DNA from: Lachnospiraceae bacterium
GTDB lineage: Bacteria > Bacillota > Clostridia > Lachnospirales > Lachnospiraceae
Reading direction: 5' to 3'
Assembly (NCBI GenBank): GCA_024693135.1
Contig: JAILLN010000065.1
Location: forward strand, 1-64,000
DNA: 64,000 nucleotides
Shown here: in pieces, positions 1 through 45,524 of the stretch
How positions within the stretch are numbered: the stretch's first letter is position 1
Layout of the letters: each line of letters begins with the position of its first letter
Made by a program: the position numbers and the translations under genes
The notes under the pieces: generated by a model
The model's input: the letters and a program-made list of their open reading frames with translations, nothing else
What the model was told of the DNA's origin: nothing
The model's database searches: none

Positions 1-560
1 GAGCTTCCCGCCGGCTTCGACTATGCAATCTCGGCTATGTGAGCCAACGATAAAGCGTGTTGTCTCACATGGCAGCCGATCTTGCAAGTCTACGCAGGCG
101 GCAATCTCCGCGTGTTCGCGGAAAGAGGCTCCTTAGGAAACACCAAGGCCCGCAGTCGGCTCACTCTTCGCAGAATATATGGAAGCAAGCGAAGGCTGTT
201 TCAAACATATAATATCCCTCATGTACTATGCTTCTTTTATTCGTTTCGCTGGTTGTGCCTGATAATCCATGTGATGCCAAAGGGAACACGGCTCCGCTTT
301 TCAGCTCAGAAAATGCAGTGTGGAAGGGGAGCCGGGAAAAAGGAACTCTGCAAGGCCCTAATGCCGGTATTTCTATGCGAGACCGAGACGCATAAATTTC
401 GCGAGTGCGAAGGCCGGGCTTGTGCCTCACGAATATCCGCCTTACGAAAACTTATTTTGGCGCAAGACCGGAACAGCGCCGAGCGAAATTTTGTCATGCG
501 GCGACGGGCGAGGTTAGAAACGACCGAGCGCCGGCAGAGTTCCTTTTTTCGGCGACCCCA
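1..560 (+). repeat. Dispersed non-coding element, copy 1 (domain A ~1-173, divergent linker ~174-325, domain B ~326-560); continues past the left window edge
   Basis: Reverse-complement match to 44690-45297. Positions 1-140 differ from copy 2 at about 2 sites. Domain B (~352-533) aligns without gaps, with a core at ~472-532 that is nearly identical. All reading frames look similarly conserved, which fits nucleotide-level rather than protein conservation. Confidence 0.85.
331..553 (+). ncRNA. Candidate structured RNA domain B, copy 1, closed by a long terminal stem (331-351 with 534-553)
   Basis: AAAAAGGAACTCTGC (337-351) is the exact reverse complement of GCAGAGTTCCTTTTT (534-548), extended by GCCG/CGGC. 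Copy 2 keeps the stem through three compensatory pair changes. Internal hairpins: TATGCG/CGCATA, TTCGC-GAGT-GCGAA, GGCGC/GCGCC. Confidence 0.6.
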
Positions 561-611
561 GGCGGACACCTGCACTTCAATCAACCAACCGTCCCCCTGT
601 CTGCAGACAGT

Positions 612-2528
612 TCAATCAACGCATTGGAAGTATTCGCTCAATTTTTCAATTGGGATCGGTCTGGAATATTTGTAGCCCTGGAGATACCGGGCCGACATCT
701 TCTCACAGCGCTCCTCGTCCTGATCGTTCTCCACGCCCTCATAAAGCACGGCATAATTCATGTCGCTGAACATCTTGGCCAGATGCTCCACCATGAGCAT
801 GGACTTCTCACTGTTTCCGGAAGCGATGACCAGGGAGCGGTCAAATTTGATGATATCAAAAGGCAGCTGCATGATCCGTTCGAAATTGGAATATCCGGTG
901 CCGAAGTCATCCAAATAAAACTTGATCCCGCATTTCCTCAGTTCATTGATCTTATCCTTCAGGATCATGAAATCGTTCTCATTCTGGCTTTCGGTCACTT
1001 CAATGGCGATCCGGTTATTGGGGATGCCGCTGTCGCCGATGATCTTTTCCACCATTTCGCAGAAGTGCTCCTGCCGGATATCCGAGATGGAGAAATTCAC
1101 GGAGATCCGCTTTACCAGATATCCGTTGTCCAGAAGCCTCTTGATCTGCATGCAGGTCTTGTGCAGGATTATCCGGCTCATCACATGGATATAACCGTGC
1201 TGCTCTGCGATGGGGATGAACTGATCCGGGAATACCATCCCGATCTTTTCCAGCTTCATCCGCATCAATGCTTCGGCGGTATCGTATTCCCCGGTCTCGA
1301 TATTCATCACCGGCTGGCAGTAGACCACCACCCGCTCATCATTCAGATTCTGGTTCTTCTGGATCTCTTCCATCTGCTCCAGGATATACTTCTGCTTCTT
1401 GAAGAGCTCAATATCCGCATCCTTCACATACCGGGTCTGGTTCATCTGCATCCTGGATTCCATATACTGGATCATGCTTGCGTATTCATTGCGCTCATCC
1501 AGCTCCTTACAGGTCTGCACGATGACGATCTTGTAATCCAGGCGGTACTTCGGATATACCTCGGCAAAATTCCCCAGGATCTCCCCCACCTGCACCTCGT
1601 AATGGGGGTTCAGGTCGATGGGTATGGCCAGGATCATATGTCCGTTTGACATCTGGAAGAGCACCGAGCTGTTGAAATAGAACGTGGTGAACTGCCGGAT
1701 GGTTTCCTGGATCCCCTTGGGATATCTGACCCCGTTCCCATCAAATTCCTTCAGATACAGGCTCATGAGGAGGGTCTGTTTCTTTTTCCGGTACCGGTCT
1801 TCGATCAGGTCGTCAAAGGCGGCCGCATTCAGGGAGCCGGTCTCGATGTCATACGGATTGGAATGGACCAGGTAAAGCAGGGCAAAGGTGGGAAACAGGA
1901 AGGTTGCCGCCGTGAAGGAGGTCTGCCGGAAGAACTGCTGGATGATAAGCATCAGGAAGGATATCCCGATGGTCCCCGCCACCCCGTACATGACCTGCTT
2001 ATAGACCCTGCTCCGGTAGGTATACATGATATAAAGGTTAAGTCCCACATAGAAAAGATGGCATATGGGAAACAGGTTCAATCCCGGCACCACAGTCCCG
2101 TCCTGGTCCACATGGAAGCCGATCTTCAGGAAATAGCCCACGATCTCATAGGCGAGCACCAGGAAATAGACGATGGAAGCGATGATGATGAACCGCTTTT
2201 CCTTCTTCTCCTCCAGATGCATGGTCTCCATGATATAGGCCACAAAAAGCACCATCATGCCGGAAATGGACAGATGGTATAAGGCTCTGGTGATATAGGC
2301 CGCGATCCGCCAGGAATAGCCCTTCTCCAGGAACATATGATAGGACACATTGGTCATCGCCGAGATAAAGAGCAGAAGAAGGATGTGGCGGAATATCCCG
2401 TAGTTTCGCGTACGGTTGATATAGGAGGCACGGATCAGGATGGCGAACACAAAGCAGATCGCCATGACGGTGATGTCTCCCACCGGAGAATAATTTATGA
2501 TATATTCAATGCTTGGCTCTCCCATCAT
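612..2528 (-). CDS. Multi-TM membrane EAL-domain protein with degenerate GGDEF-like region (putative c-di-GMP phosphodiesterase)
   Basis: N-terminal hydrophobic helices; EAL motifs EALMRMK, IEVTESQ, YLDDFGTGYSNF, IIKFDRS, EGVEN; no GGDEF signature. Confidence 0.9.
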   Translation of the reverse strand: MMGEPSIEYIINYSPVGDITVMAICFVFAILIRASYINRTRNYGIFRHILLLLFISAMTNVSYHMFLEKGYSWRIAAYITRALYHLSISGMMVLFVAYIMETMHLEEKKEKRFIIIASIVYFLVLAYEIVGYFLKIGFHVDQDGTVVPGLNLFPICHLFYVGLNLYIMYTYRSRVYKQVMYGVAGTIGISFLMLIIQQFFRQTSFTAATFLFPTFALLYLVHSNPYDIETGSLNAAAFDDLIEDRYRKKKQTLLMSLYLKEFDGNGVRYPKGIQETIRQFTTFYFNSSVLFQMSNGHMILAIPIDLNPHYEVQVGEILGNFAEVYPKYRLDYKIVIVQTCKELDERNEYASMIQYMESRMQMNQTRYVKDADIELFKKQKYILEQMEEIQKNQNLNDERVVVYCQPVMNIETGEYDTAEALMRMKLEKIGMVFPDQFIPIAEQHGYIHVMSRIILHKTCMQIKRLLDNGYLVKRISVNFSISDIRQEHFCEMVEKIIGDSGIPNNRIAIEVTESQNENDFMILKDKINELRKCGIKFYLDDFGTGYSNFERIMQLPFDIIKFDRSLVIASGNSEKSMLMVEHLAKMFSDMNYAVLYEGVENDQDEERCEKMSARYLQGYKYSRPIPIEKLSEYFQCVD

Positions 2529-20998: not shown

Positions 20999-21030
20999 GC
21001 CGCTAAAAAATGCGGCATTCTCTTTTTTTT
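20994..21030 (+). terminator. Strong plus-strand intrinsic terminator-like hairpin; weaker on the minus strand
   Basis: AGAATGCCGC-TAAAAAAT-GCGGCATTCT followed by CTTTTTTTT on plus. Confidence 0.65.
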
Positions 21031-24000
21031 CATTTGATCGTAAACCTTGCCATCTTCGGCGATGCACTGATCAAGCCCTCCGGTCCTGCCGGAATGACGC
21101 TCACGGATACCCGGGCTTTTTTCTTTCCGACATCCCGGTTATCGCTGAAGCTTACCTTAAAGATCATATCGTCGATCTTTGCGCCCTCCCCATAGTCTTC
21201 CTTTTTGATCTCATAGGTTTTGGACGCTTTTCCGATCCGGCCGGTCACCAGGATCCTGTCCGGCTGCACTCTCTGGCCTCCCCGGTAGGACTGGTCCGCA
21301 ATGGGGGCGATCCCGGTCAGCCGGATCAGCCCCTTACCCATATCCGCACTCATGCGGCCGCTGGATGCGGAGCCTTCAAAGCCCCCGCCCGTGCCCGGCT
21401 TAAAGGTGACCCAGTTGGCAGACACCCCGCTTCCGGGCGAATTAAAGGATACCGCCTCAAAGTCATAGTCCTTCTGGTATTTCAATGCCACGGTTTTGTA
21501 ATTTCCGAATGCATCGATCCCCTTCTTTGCGCTGTATTGCACGAGTACCAGCTTTTTGCTGTATTTTTTCAATTCATTCCGGTCGTCCTTCGTAAAGCCC
21601 TTATTCAAGAGGACCAGGGAATTGCTGCTTAAGGCCCCCCGGACCGGCAGCGCCATGTCATCGGTGATCTTTATGGTACCCTTTACGACCTCCCGTCCAT
21701 TCTGGTCCCGGAGCCCTTTGATCGTTACCGCAAGCTTGCCGTTCCTGCCCTTTTTGATCGTCACCTTTGCGCTGCCATTCTTCAGCAGATTGGTCAGATA
21801 ATCACTCCGCAAAAATGCTCCGTTCTTCCCGTTCCTGGCATACAGGGTCATATATACATGCCCGTAAGCATCGGTCGCATAAGGACTCTTTTCCGCATCC
21901 AGGGCATAGGTATATCCGCCGGCATTATACGGGATCTCCGTCACCTCCGGCCCAAAGGGATCCTTATTTTCCGACAGGCAGATCTTCACCCCGGATGCAT
22001 CCATGGGCTTTACCTGATAAGTGGCAACGACCTTGTCCTTCTGGGAATAAGCCCCCTTTCCCCGGAAGATGATCTTATAGGTTCCGGGAGTCGTATTGTA
22101 AGGGGCGAAGGTCCGGTTGATCAAGCCGGCCTCATCGGCAGCGATGGAAGCCACCCAGGTCTCCCCCTTCTGCCCAGGGGCTTTGCTGTATACATCGATC
22201 CGGTTTTTCAGGGCGCCCACTTTGTTTATGCTGATGGCAAAGCCGCAGTTCCCGCTCAGGCTCTCCACCTGGATGCCGCCGCCGATGGCACGCTCCGCAC
22301 CCTCATTGGTATAATACCGGGTGATCACCGTCTTCGGATCCACTGCCTTACTGAGCTTCTGGGTTGTCCTAAAGCTCACCTTCAGCCATACCGGCTCGGG
22401 CAGCATGCCCTTTTCAAGGACCGCTTTTTCCGTCGGGGCAAGGCGCAGCATATAATTTCCTGCCTGGGTGGTGCTGTCCATGACGCTTCCCATCTCCGTA
22501 AATGCCCAGACCCGGTTTCCATTCTTTCTGTCATAAAGCGATGCTTCGATGTCTTCTGCCTTCATCGGAGTCTTATTCTTATCCTTCTTGAATACAGAAA
22601 GCCTAGTATAGAACCCCTTGTCGTTGATCGTCCCGGTATAGGTATTGGCACTGACCGCCTTCATGCCGCCGCAGGTATAGGCCGTGCTCTCCCAGGCCTC
22701 CATTGCACTGTATTTGTTTATCCAGGCGCCTATTTTCGCGCTTCCGTGCGGAAGCACACAGAAGCTGTCAAAAAAGTCATCCCGGTCCAGGATCTCCATC
22801 CGCTCCACGCCGCTCTTTACCTCCGGGATCCCTTCCGGCACAAAGGCCCACAGGGACATCCGGATGCCCCTGCTCCCGAAATAGGTTCCCTCTGCTTTCT
22901 TCACGGCGCCATCGATATAGTATTCCCCGGCATCCTCTAAGGCCCGGCATTCGCTGACCACGCTGTATTTGATCTTTCCTTTTTCTATTGTGGCATACCG
23001 TTTTCCCGAGATTTCCTTTTCATCGTCCCAGTATACCGATGCCACGGCAAAGACCGGATCCACGCTGAAGCGGCTGTTTTTATCCACCTGATAATAGGGA
23101 TTCACGCCCTTCGTTACGGTAAGCCAGATCATTTTGCCGCTCTGGTCATAGCTTCCCGCCGGGTCGATGGGCCGGATGGAATAATACTCGGTAAAGCTTA
23201 CGCCCTTGTAATCGCCCTTTCCCACCGCAATGACGGCCGGCCATTTCCTGGTATCCTTTACTTCCTTGATATTGCAGACCTCTACGTTATTCTTATATTT
23301 TAAGATATAGTCCTTTCCCTCCACCAGCCGGTAGGTCTTCCCGTTCACCGTGGAGGTGATCCTTACGCCGAGGTCCGGGGTATTCTTTTTCGTGCCCGGC
23401 GTCCTGTCGGATACATGCTTGAAGCCGTTATAATACACATCCTCCACCGGATCCATTTTCAGGTTCACGTTATCATTGGGTTCATATTTCTGCTGGGCGA
23501 ACCTGAGGGTAAGCTCCACGGAGCTTATATATTCCCTTCCCAGAGAAGGCGTATATTCAAATGCAAGATATCCCGTGCCCGGCACCCGGGGGATATATTC
23601 TTCATCCACCGATGCCTCAACCGTCTCATGGCGCCGGCCTTCCGTGTCTTTGCTTCCATCGTAAGTGATCTCTGCCCGCCAGATCTTGTCGGTATTCTCA
23701 TAGACATCCTGCCCGCCGGCGAGAGCCCACAGCTCCTGGATGGAGATGCCGGGGATGCTCTTGTGGGTCCACTCATTCCGTTCCGGATAATACAGGCCCT
23801 TTTCATCGGTCCGGTTGTCCTTTCCCGCAAAGGACACCTTTACGGTGGGAATGATCCGGATCCTGCAGGTGCCGACCTCAAGTGCATAATTCCCGGAGAG
23901 GGTATCCGCTTCCCGGAAGACCGGGACCACCTCGGCCGGCTCCTGATAATAATCATACCGGTTAAACCGTTCCTCCGTAAGGCCGCATTGGGCTACGGAA

Positions 24001-27000
24001 AGCTCCCCGTCCACATAGTATTCCGGACTCCCGGCAGGATGTGCCGCTCCCTTCTCGTCATAAAGCTTTATTTCAAAGTGCGGATGCAGCCCCAGGAGCT
24101 GCTCGTCTGCAGGGTTCGTGGTAAAGCTCAGGGCATAGTCCTCATCCTTCGGCAGGATCCCCACTCTCTGTTCCACGATCCGGACCGCACCCTCCTTCGT
24201 GCTTACCGCCTTCTCTCCGTTATAGGTCGCCCGGAAATAGATCGTATCTCCCTTGGCTGCTCCCGTGATCCCTTCCATGGTAAAGGCGCTGTCCCTGTAT
24301 ACCCGGACGGCCACCTTGCCATCATCCGTGATATCCAGGCCGCCCTGCCTTTTATCCGTGACCTTCACGAAGCCCTTCGGATCAAAGCCCGTAAGGGCAT
24401 GGCCGTCTGTCAGGGTATAGGCATAGGGGATGCCGGTATAGACCGGGGTGATCTGAAGCTCCGGTGCCATGACCCGGACCCTTGTGCAGTTGGAAGCCGC
24501 CGCTCCCCTGTATTCATAGTTTTTGGAATTCAATAATGCTTCATTTTGAATGATCGAGATCTCGATCATTCCCGCTTCCTCCAGCAGGATCCCCTGGGTG
24601 TCATTGGATTTCAGCACGCCCAGCTCAGTTCCGTTCTGCCTGACCACGTACCAGACCCGGCTGTCGTTCCAGTACAGTCCTTTAATCTCCTCTTTTCTTT
24701 GGGCATCCGCAAAGAACCGGGTCTCCAGGTTCGACCAGGTTATCCTTTTCCCGGCATCGATCCGCCATTCATTGCTTGCCGGAATGAAGCTCAGCTCCCC
24801 GGAATGGCCTATATTTACAGAAACCGCACCATAAGCCCCTGCAGGCAGCACATTAAACATGACATCGTTGGAGCTTACATAGACAGGATCATAGTCGTCC
24901 GGATCCAGATCCTTCAGGAAGCCTGCCGCATGATAGGTTCCGACGGGAAGCGCTTCTCCCCGGTCAGAATATACTCCGCCGCCCTCGACCGGATAGTCCA
25001 TGCCATCCCAGTCCTGTAAAAGCTCCTGCTCCGCCGCGCTGTTTCCGCTTTCCGCATAGAAGTACCGGATCCGGCTCTCCAGCTCCTGGGGACTGAATCC
25101 TGCCCGCCTGTTTTTGTCCTTCAGGTTCGGCAGCAGGTTATGGCTGGCGGTTTCCCCGTAAATGATATACGGCCGGCCGGTCATCAGCTTATCAAACTGC
25201 ATTTCCTTAAACTTTGCGCTGCGGAAGCCCTCCTCCGTGATTTTGGTGCAGGGGCTGTCCAATGCATCCCCCTTAAAATAAGCCGCATAGACATCATAAG
25301 GCTTGTCGGGAGTAAGCGGCGTATAGCTGTACCATCCCGAATTGCCATAGGATACAGCCTGACGGAGCTCCAGGCCGGAGGATGTCATCTCCTGCCACAG
25401 GTCTTTGCTGATCTGATCGATCTGCCCTCCGGAACCTTCTCCATCGACTGCAATGACATACAGCCCGTCCATATCCAGCTGCTGGTTTGCCGTCCGGACC
25501 TTGAAGGACTTTGCCTTTTTCTCATCCTCCGGGAGGATAAAATCACTTTTTTTCAGTACCGCCTTGTAGGCGTTGAGGGTCTCGCACGGATTCGATGCCG
25601 GTCCCTTGTAGCCGTAATTGCCATTGTTCAGCCCGGCATCATTCCTCGAAATAGAGACCGCTATGCTTCCGGTCGTATTCACGCTGACGCCCCGGCTGTC
25701 ACCATACTTCAGGACGCCCAGCACCTTCCCGTCCTTTTTGACCACATACTGGACGAGGTTATCCTTCCAGCTTAAGCCTCCGATCTCCTCATTTGCCCCC
25801 GGATCGGTGAAAAAGCGGGTAGTGAAATCCGACCATTTCAAATACTTTCTGACATCCATCCTCCATTCTTGCTGATCTGCATCATAGCTCAGATCCGGGG
25901 AATGCCCGGTGGCTACCATGATCCTCCCGTATGCGTCAGCCGGCCTTACCGTAAATCTCACGGAATTCGAGCTGACATATAACGGATCATAGTCGTCCAT
26001 GGCCAGGCCCTTCAGGAAACCGACGGCAATGTACTCTCCCGCAGCCAGCCTTCCGTTCCGGTCGGAATACACGCCGTCTCCTTCCGCAGGATAAGCCCCG
26101 CCGTCCCAGATGCCAAGCACCCTCTCCTCAGCACTTTTGTTGCCGGCTTCTGCGTAAAAATACCGGATCCTGCCCTTGACCTCACCCGGATCAAAGGGCG
26201 GATTCTGCCGGAGGCTTTCGTCCTCCAGAACCGGAGTCATGATCTCGTTTGCATTCCGGCCATAGGCGATGGCATTCTCACTTGCTTTCAGCGTGAACCG
26301 GATCCTTCTGGGATTTTCGGTTTTGAAGCCGTCTCCAGTTATTCTTGCACAGCCGCTGTCTATCTCTCCGTTTTTGAAATAAGCGATATAGACGTCATAG
26401 AGGGTATTCGACAGAAGCGGTTCCGTCATATCCCAAAAAACCCCGTTTTTCTCCGCGCCTTTACGGATCTCCATGACGGAGCCCGTCAACGGCTGCCACA
26501 TGTACTGCGGCATGGCTTCCATAACCTCCGGCGTTATGGAAGCGGTATGCTTTATCGCGGTGATATAAAGCCCGTCCATGTCCAGCTGGCTGTTTGAAAT
26601 ATGGACCTTAAAGCTGCCTGCCTTTTTTTCATTTTCATCTATGGTAAAGTCATCCTTATTGGGCAGCACCTTGCAGACACGGATCCTTATGCAGTCCGTC
26701 CATGTCTCATCTTTATACCGGTAATTCGGGTCATTCAGTCCAGCGCTGCCGCTCAGGATGGAAATATCCAGGAAGCCGGAGCTGTTTAAGGGAATCCCCT
26801 GCTCATCACCCTGTTCCAATACGCCCAGCAGCTGCTGATCCTTGCTGACCTGGTATTTGACCTTGCTGCTGTCTTCATTCTTCCAGGCAAGGCCGGCGCA
26901 TTCCTTCGATGCGTCCTGATCCGCGAAAAAGACGGTCTGGAGATCCGACCATTTAATGGATTTCCGGATATCGATCTGCCATTCCTCATTCTCCGGATCA

Positions 27001-30000
27001 TATTTCAGATCGGAGGAATGTCCGTCATTTATAGAGACCGCGCCATATACCTCAACCGGCTCCACCGTAAAATTCGCTTCCCCGGATCGGACATAAAGCG
27101 GATCATAATCATCCGGATCCAGATCCTTCAGGAAGCCGACCGCAATATAAGCCCCTGCAGGCAGCTTCTGCGTCTGCTCGCTCTGGTCAGAATATACGCC
27201 GTCGCCTTCCGGGTATGCCCCTCCGGTCCAATCCGCCCGGAGCTTATCCAGGGCGGCGGCATCGGCCGTATTGGCATAGAAATACCGGATCCCGTCCTTC
27301 AGGGCGGCCGGGTCAAATGAACGTCCGGTGGTATCCTCCAGCACCGGGATCAGGTTATCGCTTGCCGTCCTTCCGTAGGAAATGGAATACTTGTCTCTCG
27401 TCAGGATGAATTTAAGCTTTCTCTGCTTCGGGGTACGGAAGCCGTCCTCCGTGACCCGGGCATATCCGCCCTCCATGACATCCCCATGAAAATATGCGGC
27501 ATAAATGTCATAAAGCGTGTCCGGCTCAAGGGGCACACTGGTCCATGCATTCCCGTCATAATTCAGTGCCTGGGTGATCTCGGAGCCGGAAACCGCCAGC
27601 GGCTGCCACATAGCCGCAGGAATGCTCCGGATATTCCCCGATCCACTGTCATGCTTTACCGTCGCGATCAAAAGCCCATCCCTGTCCAGCTGCTGATCCG
27701 CAATGCGAAGCCAGAAGCGCTTTGCTTTTTTCTCCGCCTCCGGTACGGTAAAGCTGCTCTTTGACGGCAGGGACTTATAGACATGGATGCGGGCATTATG
27801 ATCCGTGGTCTGTTTATCATAGCTGTAATTCGGATCATTGAGCCCGGCGCCGTTTGGCTCAATGGAGATGGTGATGAAGCCTAAGGAATTCACGCTTACA
27901 CCCTGGCCGCCATTCTCCAGTACGCCCAGCTCCTGATCCTCCTTTTTGACAACATACCGTACCTTGCTGTCACTCCACCGTAAGCTTCCGGCTTCATCTC
28001 CGCCGGAGGGAGCCAGGTAGAACCGGGTCTCAAGATCCGTCCATTTTAGGAATTTTCCTGCATTGAGCCTCCATTCCTGCTGATCCGCATCGTAAGACAG
28101 ATCGGAGGAATGCCCTTCGCTTATAACGGCCGCACCGCAGACCGGAAGCGGTTCTACTCGAACGGTCATATCATCTGACCTGGCATAGGACGGCTCATAA
28201 TCGTACAGATCGTCCAATCCCTTCAGGAAAGCAACCACGCAATAGGATCCCGCAGGCAGCTGCCGGGTCTGGTCGGAATATACGCCGTCACCCTCTGCGG
28301 GATAGTCTATGCCATCCCACTGGCGGGTCAATCTCGAGACAGCCCCCGCATTGGACCGGTCAGCATAAAAGATCCGGATCCGGCTCTGCAAAGGCGTGGG
28401 GTCAAAGCTTCCCTGGCGGGTGCTTGTATCCCTCAGCTCGGTGGACAGGATGAGCCCTGCATCATCGCCATAATAGACCGATCCGGAGCTGGCATTCAGG
28501 GCAAGCTGGATCCTCCTGGCTTCCGGGGTCTGGATCCCCCCGGCCGGGGTAAGCTCGCTTAAGGCACTGTGCAGCTTTAATTCTTTTTGTTTCGTATAAT
28601 AATAAGCCGCATAGACATGATAATATGTCTGCGGTTTAACCGCGGCCGCCTGCCACTGGCCGCCGGCATAGGTTACCGCCTCATTCATCTCTGCCATGGA
28701 TACGGTGAAGGGCTTCCATAAGCCGGGTACCCCCAACAGCTGTTCTAATTGTGCCTCAGCCGGCGTCACACCGCCCTCTACCGCCACGATCCGAAGGTTC
28801 GGATCCGGCTGGCCGTCCTTTTTTCGGACCTGGAAGCTTTTTGCCTTTCTGCTTCCCTCCGGCATCGCAAATTCTCCTGCCGCCGGCTTTTCCCTGTACG
28901 GCCTGACGGGATCCGCATTTTTGTCATAATTCCAGTCTGAGGCATATTTTGACCCATCCGTCGGAGTCCTGGCGATGAGATAATATTCTTTGTCCGGATC
29001 CAGTCCGCTGAAGGAAAGCTCTCCGGTCCCGTTATAGATCTTCTTATGTCCGGACGGAATGGCGGTTCTCGGATCCCCCCAGTAATCAAGAACGGCATAT
29101 TCCACCCCGCTTTTCGGATCGCTTACCAATATCGTCCCGGTCCTCGACCTGTCCGCCGGAAGGGAAAGCGTCCTGATCCCGGGATATCCCAGCTGGTCCG
29201 GTATCCTAAAGTAAGTGAATACCTCGGAGCCAACCCCCTCCCCGTCTATGATCTGCAAAAAGATCGTATGTCCGTTGTCATTGGATATATCATAAATATT
29301 TCCCTCACGTTTGGTATCTTTGTTGTATACCGTTTCAAACAATCCTCCATATATCCGCCAGATCCTCACATTGCTATAGTCGTATTGAATAAAGCAATCC
29401 GCCGATTTGATCAGATCATCGTCCAGAAGGGCATGTGTATTTGTATCCGGCTCTTTTTGGACGGGATATAAAGTAAAATATTCGAAGTCCTTTGCGATAT
29501 TGCTCTCCTGGCAGCTTGAAGTATCCATCGAGGATAAGGGCTTGGTCTTATTCGGATTCTCCAGATCGGTATGCTGCCGCACATAGGTGAAGGCTTTGCT
29601 GTTTGTATTGTCAAAGACCAGTTTCAGGCTTTTGCCTGCAGGCCATTTCCCCTGGACGTTTTCCTTCGTTTTGATGTGAAGAGCATGCCTTGGAATGTCT
29701 GCAGAATAATCCTTGTATCCGGCATAGATATACAGGATCCCGTTCCAATGGGTGCCTGAATAGGCATTCTCCGAGACCAACAGGGTATTCGTCCCTTCAT
29801 CGTAGGTAAGCAGGTCTTCGATATGTTCATAATCATCCCGGATGCCAACCACCCAGCCCTCATAATCCTTGCTGTTTGCGGGGAGGCTGCCGCCCGCAGG
29901 CTCGAGCTCTTCTGCCTCATCTCCGGCCTCCGGCACGGATCCTGCCTCCGCTGTCTGCCCGGCCTCCGGCACGGATCCCATCTCTTCTTCAGCCGGCAAA

Positions 30001-30227
30001 GCTTCCGGTTCCTCGTCATTTGCTGTCTCCGACGGGTTCTCTGCCGTGTCTTCCCCGGACTCCCCAAGCCGTACCGGAGCTTCCTCTTCGGTTTCCCCAA
30101 ACCGTCCCGGAGTTCCCTCTTTTCCGGACTCCCCAAGCCGTACCGTGGCAAATGCCCCGGTATTTGTGCTAAGCACCATGGACAATGCAAGGATCAACGA
30201 CAAAACCTTCTTCCAGTTCTTTTTCAT
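21030..30227 (-). CDS. Giant (3065 aa) predicted secreted repeat protein, possible surface or matrix protein
   Basis: Signal peptide MKKNWKKVLSLILALSMVLSTNTGAFA; four tandem ~368-aa modules; Ig-like YNGFKHV...YKNNVEV...GKGDYKG region; no recognisable LPXTG motif or C-terminal TM. Confidence 0.85.
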   Translation of the reverse strand: MKKNWKKVLSLILALSMVLSTNTGAFATVRLGESGKEGTPGRFGETEEEAPVRLGESGEDTAENPSETANDEEPEALPAEEEMGSVPEAGQTAEAGSVPEAGDEAEELEPAGGSLPANSKDYEGWVVGIRDDYEHIEDLLTYDEGTNTLLVSENAYSGTHWNGILYIYAGYKDYSADIPRHALHIKTKENVQGKWPAGKSLKLVFDNTNSKAFTYVRQHTDLENPNKTKPLSSMDTSSCQESNIAKDFEYFTLYPVQKEPDTNTHALLDDDLIKSADCFIQYDYSNVRIWRIYGGLFETVYNKDTKREGNIYDISNDNGHTIFLQIIDGEGVGSEVFTYFRIPDQLGYPGIRTLSLPADRSRTGTILVSDPKSGVEYAVLDYWGDPRTAIPSGHKKIYNGTGELSFSGLDPDKEYYLIARTPTDGSKYASDWNYDKNADPVRPYREKPAAGEFAMPEGSRKAKSFQVRKKDGQPDPNLRIVAVEGGVTPAEAQLEQLLGVPGLWKPFTVSMAEMNEAVTYAGGQWQAAAVKPQTYYHVYAAYYYTKQKELKLHSALSELTPAGGIQTPEARRIQLALNASSGSVYYGDDAGLILSTELRDTSTRQGSFDPTPLQSRIRIFYADRSNAGAVSRLTRQWDGIDYPAEGDGVYSDQTRQLPAGSYCVVAFLKGLDDLYDYEPSYARSDDMTVRVEPLPVCGAAVISEGHSSDLSYDADQQEWRLNAGKFLKWTDLETRFYLAPSGGDEAGSLRWSDSKVRYVVKKEDQELGVLENGGQGVSVNSLGFITISIEPNGAGLNDPNYSYDKQTTDHNARIHVYKSLPSKSSFTVPEAEKKAKRFWLRIADQQLDRDGLLIATVKHDSGSGNIRSIPAAMWQPLAVSGSEITQALNYDGNAWTSVPLEPDTLYDIYAAYFHGDVMEGGYARVTEDGFRTPKQRKLKFILTRDKYSISYGRTASDNLIPVLEDTTGRSFDPAALKDGIRYFYANTADAAALDKLRADWTGGAYPEGDGVYSDQSEQTQKLPAGAYIAVGFLKDLDPDDYDPLYVRSGEANFTVEPVEVYGAVSINDGHSSDLKYDPENEEWQIDIRKSIKWSDLQTVFFADQDASKECAGLAWKNEDSSKVKYQVSKDQQLLGVLEQGDEQGIPLNSSGFLDISILSGSAGLNDPNYRYKDETWTDCIRIRVCKVLPNKDDFTIDENEKKAGSFKVHISNSQLDMDGLYITAIKHTASITPEVMEAMPQYMWQPLTGSVMEIRKGAEKNGVFWDMTEPLLSNTLYDVYIAYFKNGEIDSGCARITGDGFKTENPRRIRFTLKASENAIAYGRNANEIMTPVLEDESLRQNPPFDPGEVKGRIRYFYAEAGNKSAEERVLGIWDGGAYPAEGDGVYSDRNGRLAAGEYIAVGFLKGLAMDDYDPLYVSSNSVRFTVRPADAYGRIMVATGHSPDLSYDADQQEWRMDVRKYLKWSDFTTRFFTDPGANEEIGGLSWKDNLVQYVVKKDGKVLGVLKYGDSRGVSVNTTGSIAVSISRNDAGLNNGNYGYKGPASNPCETLNAYKAVLKKSDFILPEDEKKAKSFKVRTANQQLDMDGLYVIAVDGEGSGGQIDQISKDLWQEMTSSGLELRQAVSYGNSGWYSYTPLTPDKPYDVYAAYFKGDALDSPCTKITEEGFRSAKFKEMQFDKLMTGRPYIIYGETASHNLLPNLKDKNRRAGFSPQELESRIRYFYAESGNSAAEQELLQDWDGMDYPVEGGGVYSDRGEALPVGTYHAAGFLKDLDPDDYDPVYVSSNDVMFNVLPAGAYGAVSVNIGHSGELSFIPASNEWRIDAGKRITWSNLETRFFADAQRKEEIKGLYWNDSRVWYVVRQNGTELGVLKSNDTQGILLEEAGMIEISIIQNEALLNSKNYEYRGAAASNCTRVRVMAPELQITPVYTGIPYAYTLTDGHALTGFDPKGFVKVTDKRQGGLDITDDGKVAVRVYRDSAFTMEGITGAAKGDTIYFRATYNGEKAVSTKEGAVRIVEQRVGILPKDEDYALSFTTNPADEQLLGLHPHFEIKLYDEKGAAHPAGSPEYYVDGELSVAQCGLTEERFNRYDYYQEPAEVVPVFREADTLSGNYALEVGTCRIRIIPTVKVSFAGKDNRTDEKGLYYPERNEWTHKSIPGISIQELWALAGGQDVYENTDKIWRAEITYDGSKDTEGRRHETVEASVDEEYIPRVPGTGYLAFEYTPSLGREYISSVELTLRFAQQKYEPNDNVNLKMDPVEDVYYNGFKHVSDRTPGTKKNTPDLGVRITSTVNGKTYRLVEGKDYILKYKNNVEVCNIKEVKDTRKWPAVIAVGKGDYKGVSFTEYYSIRPIDPAGSYDQSGKMIWLTVTKGVNPYYQVDKNSRFSVDPVFAVASVYWDDEKEISGKRYATIEKGKIKYSVVSECRALEDAGEYYIDGAVKKAEGTYFGSRGIRMSLWAFVPEGIPEVKSGVERMEILDRDDFFDSFCVLPHGSAKIGAWINKYSAMEAWESTAYTCGGMKAVSANTYTGTINDKGFYTRLSVFKKDKNKTPMKAEDIEASLYDRKNGNRVWAFTEMGSVMDSTTQAGNYMLRLAPTEKAVLEKGMLPEPVWLKVSFRTTQKLSKAVDPKTVITRYYTNEGAERAIGGGIQVESLSGNCGFAISINKVGALKNRIDVYSKAPGQKGETWVASIAADEAGLINRTFAPYNTTPGTYKIIFRGKGAYSQKDKVVATYQVKPMDASGVKICLSENKDPFGPEVTEIPYNAGGYTYALDAEKSPYATDAYGHVYMTLYARNGKNGAFLRSDYLTNLLKNGSAKVTIKKGRNGKLAVTIKGLRDQNGREVVKGTIKITDDMALPVRGALSSNSLVLLNKGFTKDDRNELKKYSKKLVLVQYSAKKGIDAFGNYKTVALKYQKDYDFEAVSFNSPGSGVSANWVTFKPGTGGGFEGSASSGRMSADMGKGLIRLTGIAPIADQSYRGGQRVQPDRILVTGRIGKASKTYEIKKEDYGEGAKIDDMIFKVSFSDNRDVGKKKARVSVSVIPAGPEGLISASPKMARFTIK
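24470..28871 (-). repeat. Four ~1.1 kb tandem coding modules inside the giant protein gene
   Basis: Module starts (F-x-x-P/D-E-x-E/S-x-K-A) at about 28871, 27752, 26648 and 25541. Shared motifs EGDGVYSD, YDPLYVxS, GHSxDLSYD, EWRxDxRK, AGLNdxNYxY. Confidence 0.85.
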
Positions 30228-44639: not shown

Positions 44640-44702
44640 CTATTTGGTCGTTTTGGGTCGCTGTGACAAGTAACAAAGGGCTATGTGGTCGTTTTGGGTC
44701 GC
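44640..44702. repeat. Imperfect 22-bp direct repeat, spacing 41 bp, at the domain-B boundary of copy 2
   Basis: CTATTTGGTCGTTTTGGGTCGC (44640-44661) and CTATGTGGTCGTTTTGGGTCGC (44681-44702). Confidence 0.9.
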
Positions 44703-45297
44703 CGAAAAAATGATATCTGCCAGGCGCTCGGTCGTTTCTAAGCTCGCCCGTCGCCTCATGACAAAATTTCGCTCGGCGCTGTTCTGGTCTTGCGCCCGGC
44801 CGTTTTTTCGCAAAGCAGCAGGCTGTGCGGCGCAAGCCCAGCCTTCGCACTCGCGAAATTTATGAGCCTCGGGCTCGCATAGAAATACCGGCATTAGAGC
44901 CTCTGCAGATATCATTTTTCTCGGCTCCCCCTCCGCGCTGTGCCTGCACAGACGAACCGCTGACCTAAATCGCACTATGTATTTGCACGGGCAAGGCTTG
45001 CGTTCTGGCTGTCCCCTGAGCCGCTACATAGATCTTCAGGCTCAGCCTGCGCAACGAATGGTTAAAGGGTAAGCCGCGAAAACGCCCTGCTGTTCATGGA
45101 AGCCCCTTCCGTGTTCTCATTGGTACTGCGAAGCGTGAGCCGCCAAGGGCCTTGACGTTTCCTAAGGAGCCTCTTACCGCGAACACGCGGAGATTGCCGC
45201 CTGCGTAGACTTGCAAGATCGGCTGCCATGTGAGACAACACGCTTTATCGTTGGCTCACATAGCCGAGATTGCATAGTCGAAGCCAGCGGGAAGCTC
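44690..45297 (-). repeat. Dispersed non-coding element, copy 2 (inverted relative to copy 1)
   Basis: Reverse complement of 1-~560: domain A' 45126-45297, linker ~44930-45125, domain B' ~44690-44930. Confidence 0.85.
44701..44925 (-). ncRNA. Candidate structured RNA domain B, copy 2
   Basis: Minus strand GCCGAGAAAAATGATATCTGC ... GCAGATATCATTTTTTCGGC closing stem; covaries with copy 1. Confidence 0.6.
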
Positions 45298-45335
45298 CGC
45301 ATTAAGTGAGCGGTGAGGCGACGTGGAAATGCAAG

Positions 45336-45447
45336 GCCCGCCGGCAGCGTAACCCCGCACCCCCGCGGTCCGCCGGCGGCGTAACCCCACACCACCGCAG
45401 TCCGCCGGCGGCGTAACCCCACACCACCGCAGGCCCGCCGGCAGCGA
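45336..45447. repeat. GC-rich tandem repeat, exact 32-bp period, ~3.5 copies
   Basis: (G)YCCGCCGGCRGCGTAACCCCRCACCMCCGCR at 45336, 45368, 45400 and a partial from ~45433. Confidence 0.95.
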
Positions 45448-45524
45448 TCAAGACAAAAGAACCGTCCCCCTGTCTTCGTCTATTATATTAGATTGACAAT
45501 AATTTGACAAGGATTTGACAAAAA

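Follow-up and report, generated by a model that had tools for sequence, protein, structure and literature searches.

The window analysed here, a 64,000-nucleotide stretch of a Lachnospiraceae genome, carries two copies of one hairpin family, at 331-553 and, on the minus strand, at 44701-44925. Both stretches belong to an undescribed family of long hairpin-forming dispersed DNA repeats of Lachnospiraceae. The hairpin, termed domain B, is probably a long palindromic intergenic repeat, hitherto undescribed, that works in the manner of REP, ERIC or MITE elements. The element is 200-290 bp long, and its core is bounded by CTTAG (Table 1). A sequence-only reading had described paired arms, a GCCG/CGGC base, a TTCGC-GAGT-GCGAA segment and a conserved core in the two copies, and all of them are found in both. 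Its suspicion that the element belongs to no known RNA family was also borne out: the Rfam 15 covariance models gave no match in the window at gathering thresholds and none in window 1-700 at E values up to 5. The window forms the beginning of contig 42 in a genome of 67 contigs, and this contig opens inside the element at window 1. Because this contig and others end inside copies, the assembly breaks within the element, and the copy numbers given below are therefore lower bounds.

Table 1. Features of the two copies in the window (R1, covariance model of the hairpin core)
Feature	Position	Strand	Remarks
Domain A, copy 1	1-235	+	Second long hairpin; 5' side cut by contig end
Left outer arm of domain B, copy 1	331-351	+	GCCGGGAAAAAGGAACTCTGC
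Domain B core, copy 1	363-529	+	R1, 158 bits
AAATTTCGC helix, 5' side	394-402	+	Helix 3; partner 483-491
AAATTTCGC helix, 3' side	483-491	+	Partner 394-402
Apical stem CCGGGCTTGTGCC, 5' side	414-426	+	Partner 459-471; closes variable loop
Apical stem, 3' side	459-471	+	Partner 414-426
Right outer arm of domain B, copy 1	534-553	+	GCAGAGTTCCTTTTTTCGGC; unique among 15 copies of this genome
Domain B, copy 2	44701-44925	-	R1 core 44726-44892, 165 bits
Domain A, copy 2	45126-45342	-	BLAST match 45126-45297 plus conserved 5' extension

A strand of domain B can fold into one long rod, in which the helices vary freely and the non-helical motifs persist. Copy 1 folded as RNA reaches -97.4 kcal/mol (z = -4.2), and its complement folded as DNA gives z = -4.7; none of 200 shuffles was as good in either case. 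RNAalifold applied to 53 extended copies yielded 43 pairs, 22 of them with changes on both sides. Among 111 distinct copies aligned to the model, two-sided changes occur in 35 of the 43 core pairs and 96.7% of pair cells are paired, with a covariation score of 0.444 versus 0.138 in shuffles, a value that none of 500 shuffles matched. Since the 111-copy alignment was fitted to the model, this result leans towards structure; nevertheless, pairing falls to 31-40% when the partners are slid by 1-3 columns. Thus, the covariation expected by the earlier reading is real and beyond chance in a large alignment, and it supports a conserved fold. Helix 3 alone shows two-sided changes in eight of its nine pairs across the family. 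The motifs that persist outside the helices are CTTAG facing CTTAG, tandem G.A, and CAATNAGC facing GAGC, and an inspection by eye across genera finds CAATnAGC facing GAGC, CTTAG/CTTAG, CGAA/TGAG and CGGAG/GACGAACG. Domain A forms a hairpin as well: across 17 copies from its own genome, two-sided changes affect 8 of its 71 predicted pairs. The compensated helices and the hairpin architecture make coding an unlikely explanation.

Outside the core, the outer arms are lineage-specific, and their outermost 15-25 bp even vary from copy to copy in several lineages while staying complementary. Three positions of the outer stem differ between the two copies in the window, each with a compensating change on the other arm, and they had been taken as proof of selection on pairing. 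However, the arms of 15 copies in the genome of the window, compared with the right arm written as its reverse complement, do not bear this out. The segment reads TGATATC/TGATATC in eight copies, GGAACTC/TGATATC with three mismatches in five and TGAACTC/TGATATC with two mismatches in one, and GGAACTC/GGAACTC is found solely in copy 1 of the window. The same three positions are therefore unpaired in 5 of 15 copies, and unmatched outer arms occur in 6 of 15, so that the mismatched state is common in this genome. Because copy 1 alone has its combination of arms, the three changes look like one copying event, and its matched arm probably arose when the left arm was copied onto the right in a single step. 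Replication template switching is known to cause compensatory changes of several bases at once and to invert loops in place, and in such palindromes it can yield compensatory changes without selection at each pair (PMC8794818). Both patterns, multi-base compensatory changes and in-place inversion, are present in the family.

Bases 1-560 gave 58 full or partial matches in the genome of the window, comprising composites of domains A and B, either domain alone, and fragments, and about 30 of these fall in the domain A part (window 1-235). Domain A is found only in this genome, with no match in 60 relatives. Domain B is more widespread and occurs in AD3010, RGIG8315, RUG14895, RGIG3735 and SRR8387716_bin.19, all Lachnospiraceae; several of the relatives carrying it are rumen MAGs according to their record titles. 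R1 detects the core in 17 of 48 genomes of the genus, with up to 27 copies each: 27 in G012, 18 in G000, 17 in G026, 15 each in G065 and G001, and 12 each in G027, the genome of AD3010, and G006 (G numbers denote genomes and L numbers individual loci). Copy-rich genomes of the genus hold 7-27 copies, and 31 of the 48 hold none. R1 matches were found in 7 of about 395 Lachnospiraceae genomes of other genera, three of them weak, and membership of the weakest hits (G101, G339 and G368) is uncertain. A scan of an order-wide sample added one further genus, which is within Lachnospiraceae, and gave no match outside this family. The viral contigs, phages and plasmids searched contained no match, and a phage or plasmid origin was rejected on this basis.

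Copies come and go at orthologous sites, as judged from genomes that are mostly draft MAGs and in which homologous sites within repeat arrays align poorly. At the L177 site, the copy is present in G027 only and missing from G006, G025 and G028; at the L180 site, it is shared by G027 and G006 and absent from G025 and G028; and the L175 site is occupied in G027 and empty in G006 and G025. At L174, G027 and G006 have the complete element, G025 has a palindrome without a core, and G028 has nothing. In five genomes (G027, G025, G006, G012 and G026), about seven places carry such arms without a core, fused through a single CTTAG. Tandem copies at one site are common to G027 and G006. No clean target-site duplication could be made out at empty sites, since the copies are embedded in arrays of other repeats; the core itself is flanked by a CTTAG repeat. 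Some of the absences may be deletions.

The element also inverts in place. At one orthologous site, G025 and G006 share one orientation and G027 has the other; both flanks are the same in G025 and G027, the apical loops are recognisably homologous, and G006 is cut off at the element by the end of its contig. A second inversion distinguishes G006 from G027: here the right flank and the adjacent 35 bp on the left are conserved, and sequences farther to the left differ. In seven other orthologous groups, inspection showed a constant orientation. One reading of the in-place inversion, and of the forms from several genomes that lack a core and have a single CTTAG at the junction, is a hairpin-DNA switch: a dedicated recombinase or HUH-type enzyme would recognise the element and would cut out and flip its core between CTTAG repeats. 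However, such a switch is highly unlikely, given that ordinary replication slippage deletes between 5-6 bp repeats by a hairpin, ordinary template switching flips a palindrome, and no candidate enzyme tracks the element.

All copies examined are intergenic and lie in short spaces, often 50-150 bp from a gene. Relative to tandem genes, 27 copies have the same orientation and 28 the opposite one, and 13 lie in divergent and 11 in convergent contexts. The balance of 27 to 28 contradicts a cis-regulatory role through a fixed orientation to a controlled gene. It also bears on a cis-acting mRNA element (a terminator, an RNase III/E site or a stabiliser) that moved within untranslated regions, as for ERIC and Correia. 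Such an element would fit the short intergenic positions and has a precedent in PMC10969869, and transcripts containing a long hairpin are likely targets of processing; but the copies show no orientation preference towards flanking genes and many divergent contexts, no T-run follows the right arm in AD3010-type and RGIG8315-type copies (by eye), and no common gene neighbours were seen, so that this alternative has little probability. Neighbouring genes were named by eye. Seven neighbouring proteins look like products of housekeeping genes, and composite transposons were rejected because the open reading frames between paired copies resemble genes of this kind (YqhQ-, PrmC-, PrfA- and HisC-like ones among them). 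At L164 and L165 (G150) and L175 (G027), copies lie just upstream of a thyA-like gene in two different genera and of a pyrK-like gene in G150. A shared link to nucleotide metabolism through these thyA-like and pyrK-like genes was dropped because other copies have unrelated neighbours.

Wobble pairs bear on whether the structure acts as RNA or DNA. When one nearly invariant T.G column is left out, the ratio of G-U to A-C cells in the core is 46:42, and G-U makes up 1% of cells. For RNase P of the same genus, with its structure predicted in the same way, the ratio is 203:19 and G-U makes up 7% of cells. Counted as distinct events, the core gives 17:13 versus 44:9 for RNase P (p = 0.018). The outer arms show a modest but significant G-U excess, with 35:9 cells and 24:9 distinct contexts (p = 0.014), and pairing on the oriented strand is therefore probably of some importance, which would be true of both RNA and an extruded single-stranded DNA hairpin. 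Most pair changes lack the usual wobble trail, and the wobble pairs favour RNA weakly.

A new class of structured non-coding RNA, present in multiple copies, each with its own putative promoter, and acting in trans with a protein partner, would account for the two-sided changes in 35 of 43 pairs, the conserved internal-loop motifs with G.A and U.U mismatches, the G-U excess of the outer arms and the lack of an Rfam family. From the sequence evidence, we consider such a class unlikely: wobble pairs in the core are nearly as rare as A-C and far below those of RNase P, copies are gained or lost between sister species, the entire element is inverted at orthologous sites, and many carriers have 12-27 copies when 31 of 48 genomes of the genus have none. 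The initial description of domain B as a structured RNA domain thus stands with respect to the conserved fold, the covariation and the absence of a known family, whereas its identification as an RNA is not supported; the repeat is dispersed, polymorphic in presence and absence, neutral in orientation and inverting in place. A further, less probable reading is a new structured nucleic-acid class of Lachnospiraceae, either a multi-copy RNA or a mobile hairpin-DNA unit that would be recognised by its RNA-like non-canonical motifs, with helices rewritten and a core flipped in place by replication.

For the palindromic repeat that we favour, a folded single strand would be recognised by a putative mobilising or processing factor, and such recognition would explain why the non-helical motifs are kept. 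Template switching in replication, or copying from one arm to the other, would do most of the work of restoring perfect arm pairing and would also invert the core. Several observations count against this explanation: simple REP or MITE palindromes do not usually have conserved non-canonical motifs, the G-U excess of the outer arms fits selection on a folded single strand, either RNA or single-stranded DNA, clean target-site duplications were not found at the empty sites, and no transposase tracks the copies.

Among known systems, ERIC elements are intergenic, exceed 100 bp, form one long stem-loop and vary widely in copy number among relatives (PMC2267715, PMC10969869). In architecture, the present element is likewise a long single-hairpin intergenic repeat, found in both orientations and variable in copy number. 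Unlike ERIC, it belongs to Lachnospiraceae, has no phage or plasmid match, carries several conserved internal-loop motifs, replaces its helices wholesale between lineages and inverts in place. It resembles REP/BIME elements with RAYT (TnpA-REP) in being an extragenic palindrome in arrays, with alternating orientation and a hairpin with mismatches. However, REPs are 20-40 bp long and mostly carry GTAG/CGTC tags (PMC3733652), and an element of 200-290 bp with a CTTAG-bounded core departs from that description in size and tag. Furthermore, a search for Y1_Tnp (PF01797) found none in two copy-rich genomes, G000 (the genome of the window, whose 88% completeness leaves room for a missed gene) and G025, and Y1 transposases are abundant in G030 and G032, where R1 finds no copies. 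An IS200/IS605-type Y1 transposase was therefore rejected as the mobiliser for want of any correlation with the copies. As no transposase tracks the copies, we only infer enzymatic mobility. Like bacterial MITEs, the element is non-autonomous, small, non-coding, multi-copy and intergenic, with terminal inverted repeats; unlike them, it showed no parent insertion sequence among the seven neighbouring proteins read by eye and no clean target-site duplication at the empty sites examined. HEARO, GOLLD, ROOL, OLE and raiA are also long, structured, covarying and non-coding, but the element matches none of them in Rfam at either threshold and differs in its repeat and inversion behaviour.

Covariation is usually treated as near-proof of a functional RNA, and this family passes the usual covariation tests. 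Its biology, with absence at sister sites, orientation neutrality, inversion, arm copying and few wobbles, is consistent with a palindrome that spreads by itself and relies on replication to repair its pairing. The family is thus a natural test case for separating functional RNA from replication-repaired palindromes and a caution for screens that look for new RNAs in genomes rich in repeats, and it may lead to a new hairpin-recognising enzyme.

Several further modules and repeats accompany the element. At L012:380-520, L013, L017 and L018 (G000), the position downstream of domain A is occupied by a further repeat module (GGGGCTGAAAAGATTTTTGCGCGATATTG...GGGCAAAATGACATGGATGTCATTTTGAGCCG...) instead of domain B. 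In two species, one and the same internal loop of the core has received a different small hairpin (GCAAAACATGCCCTTTGGCATGTTTTGAA...), at L091 (G012) and at L156 and L157 (G065); this hairpin also occurs alone. Back-to-back inverted pairs, 110-160 bp apart, are seen at L153, L154, L155 and L156 (G065, which has two subtypes) and at L161 (G064). Short tandem arrays flank the element at window 45300-45480 and 44640-44690 and at many other loci: domain A is preceded by GGCCCGCCGGCGGCGCA..., domain B is followed by GGCGACCC..AGCGAACACATAAACC, and relatives have AAGATCCTTCGTCGCTTTCGCTCCTCAGGATGACA. Short AGACAGGGGGACGGTTCTTTTGTCT-type tags lie near many copies (window about 592-610 and 45450-45480) and also occur in other members of the genus (L051 and L042). 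Elsewhere in the window, the minus strand contains one open frame of 3065 amino acids at 21030-30227.
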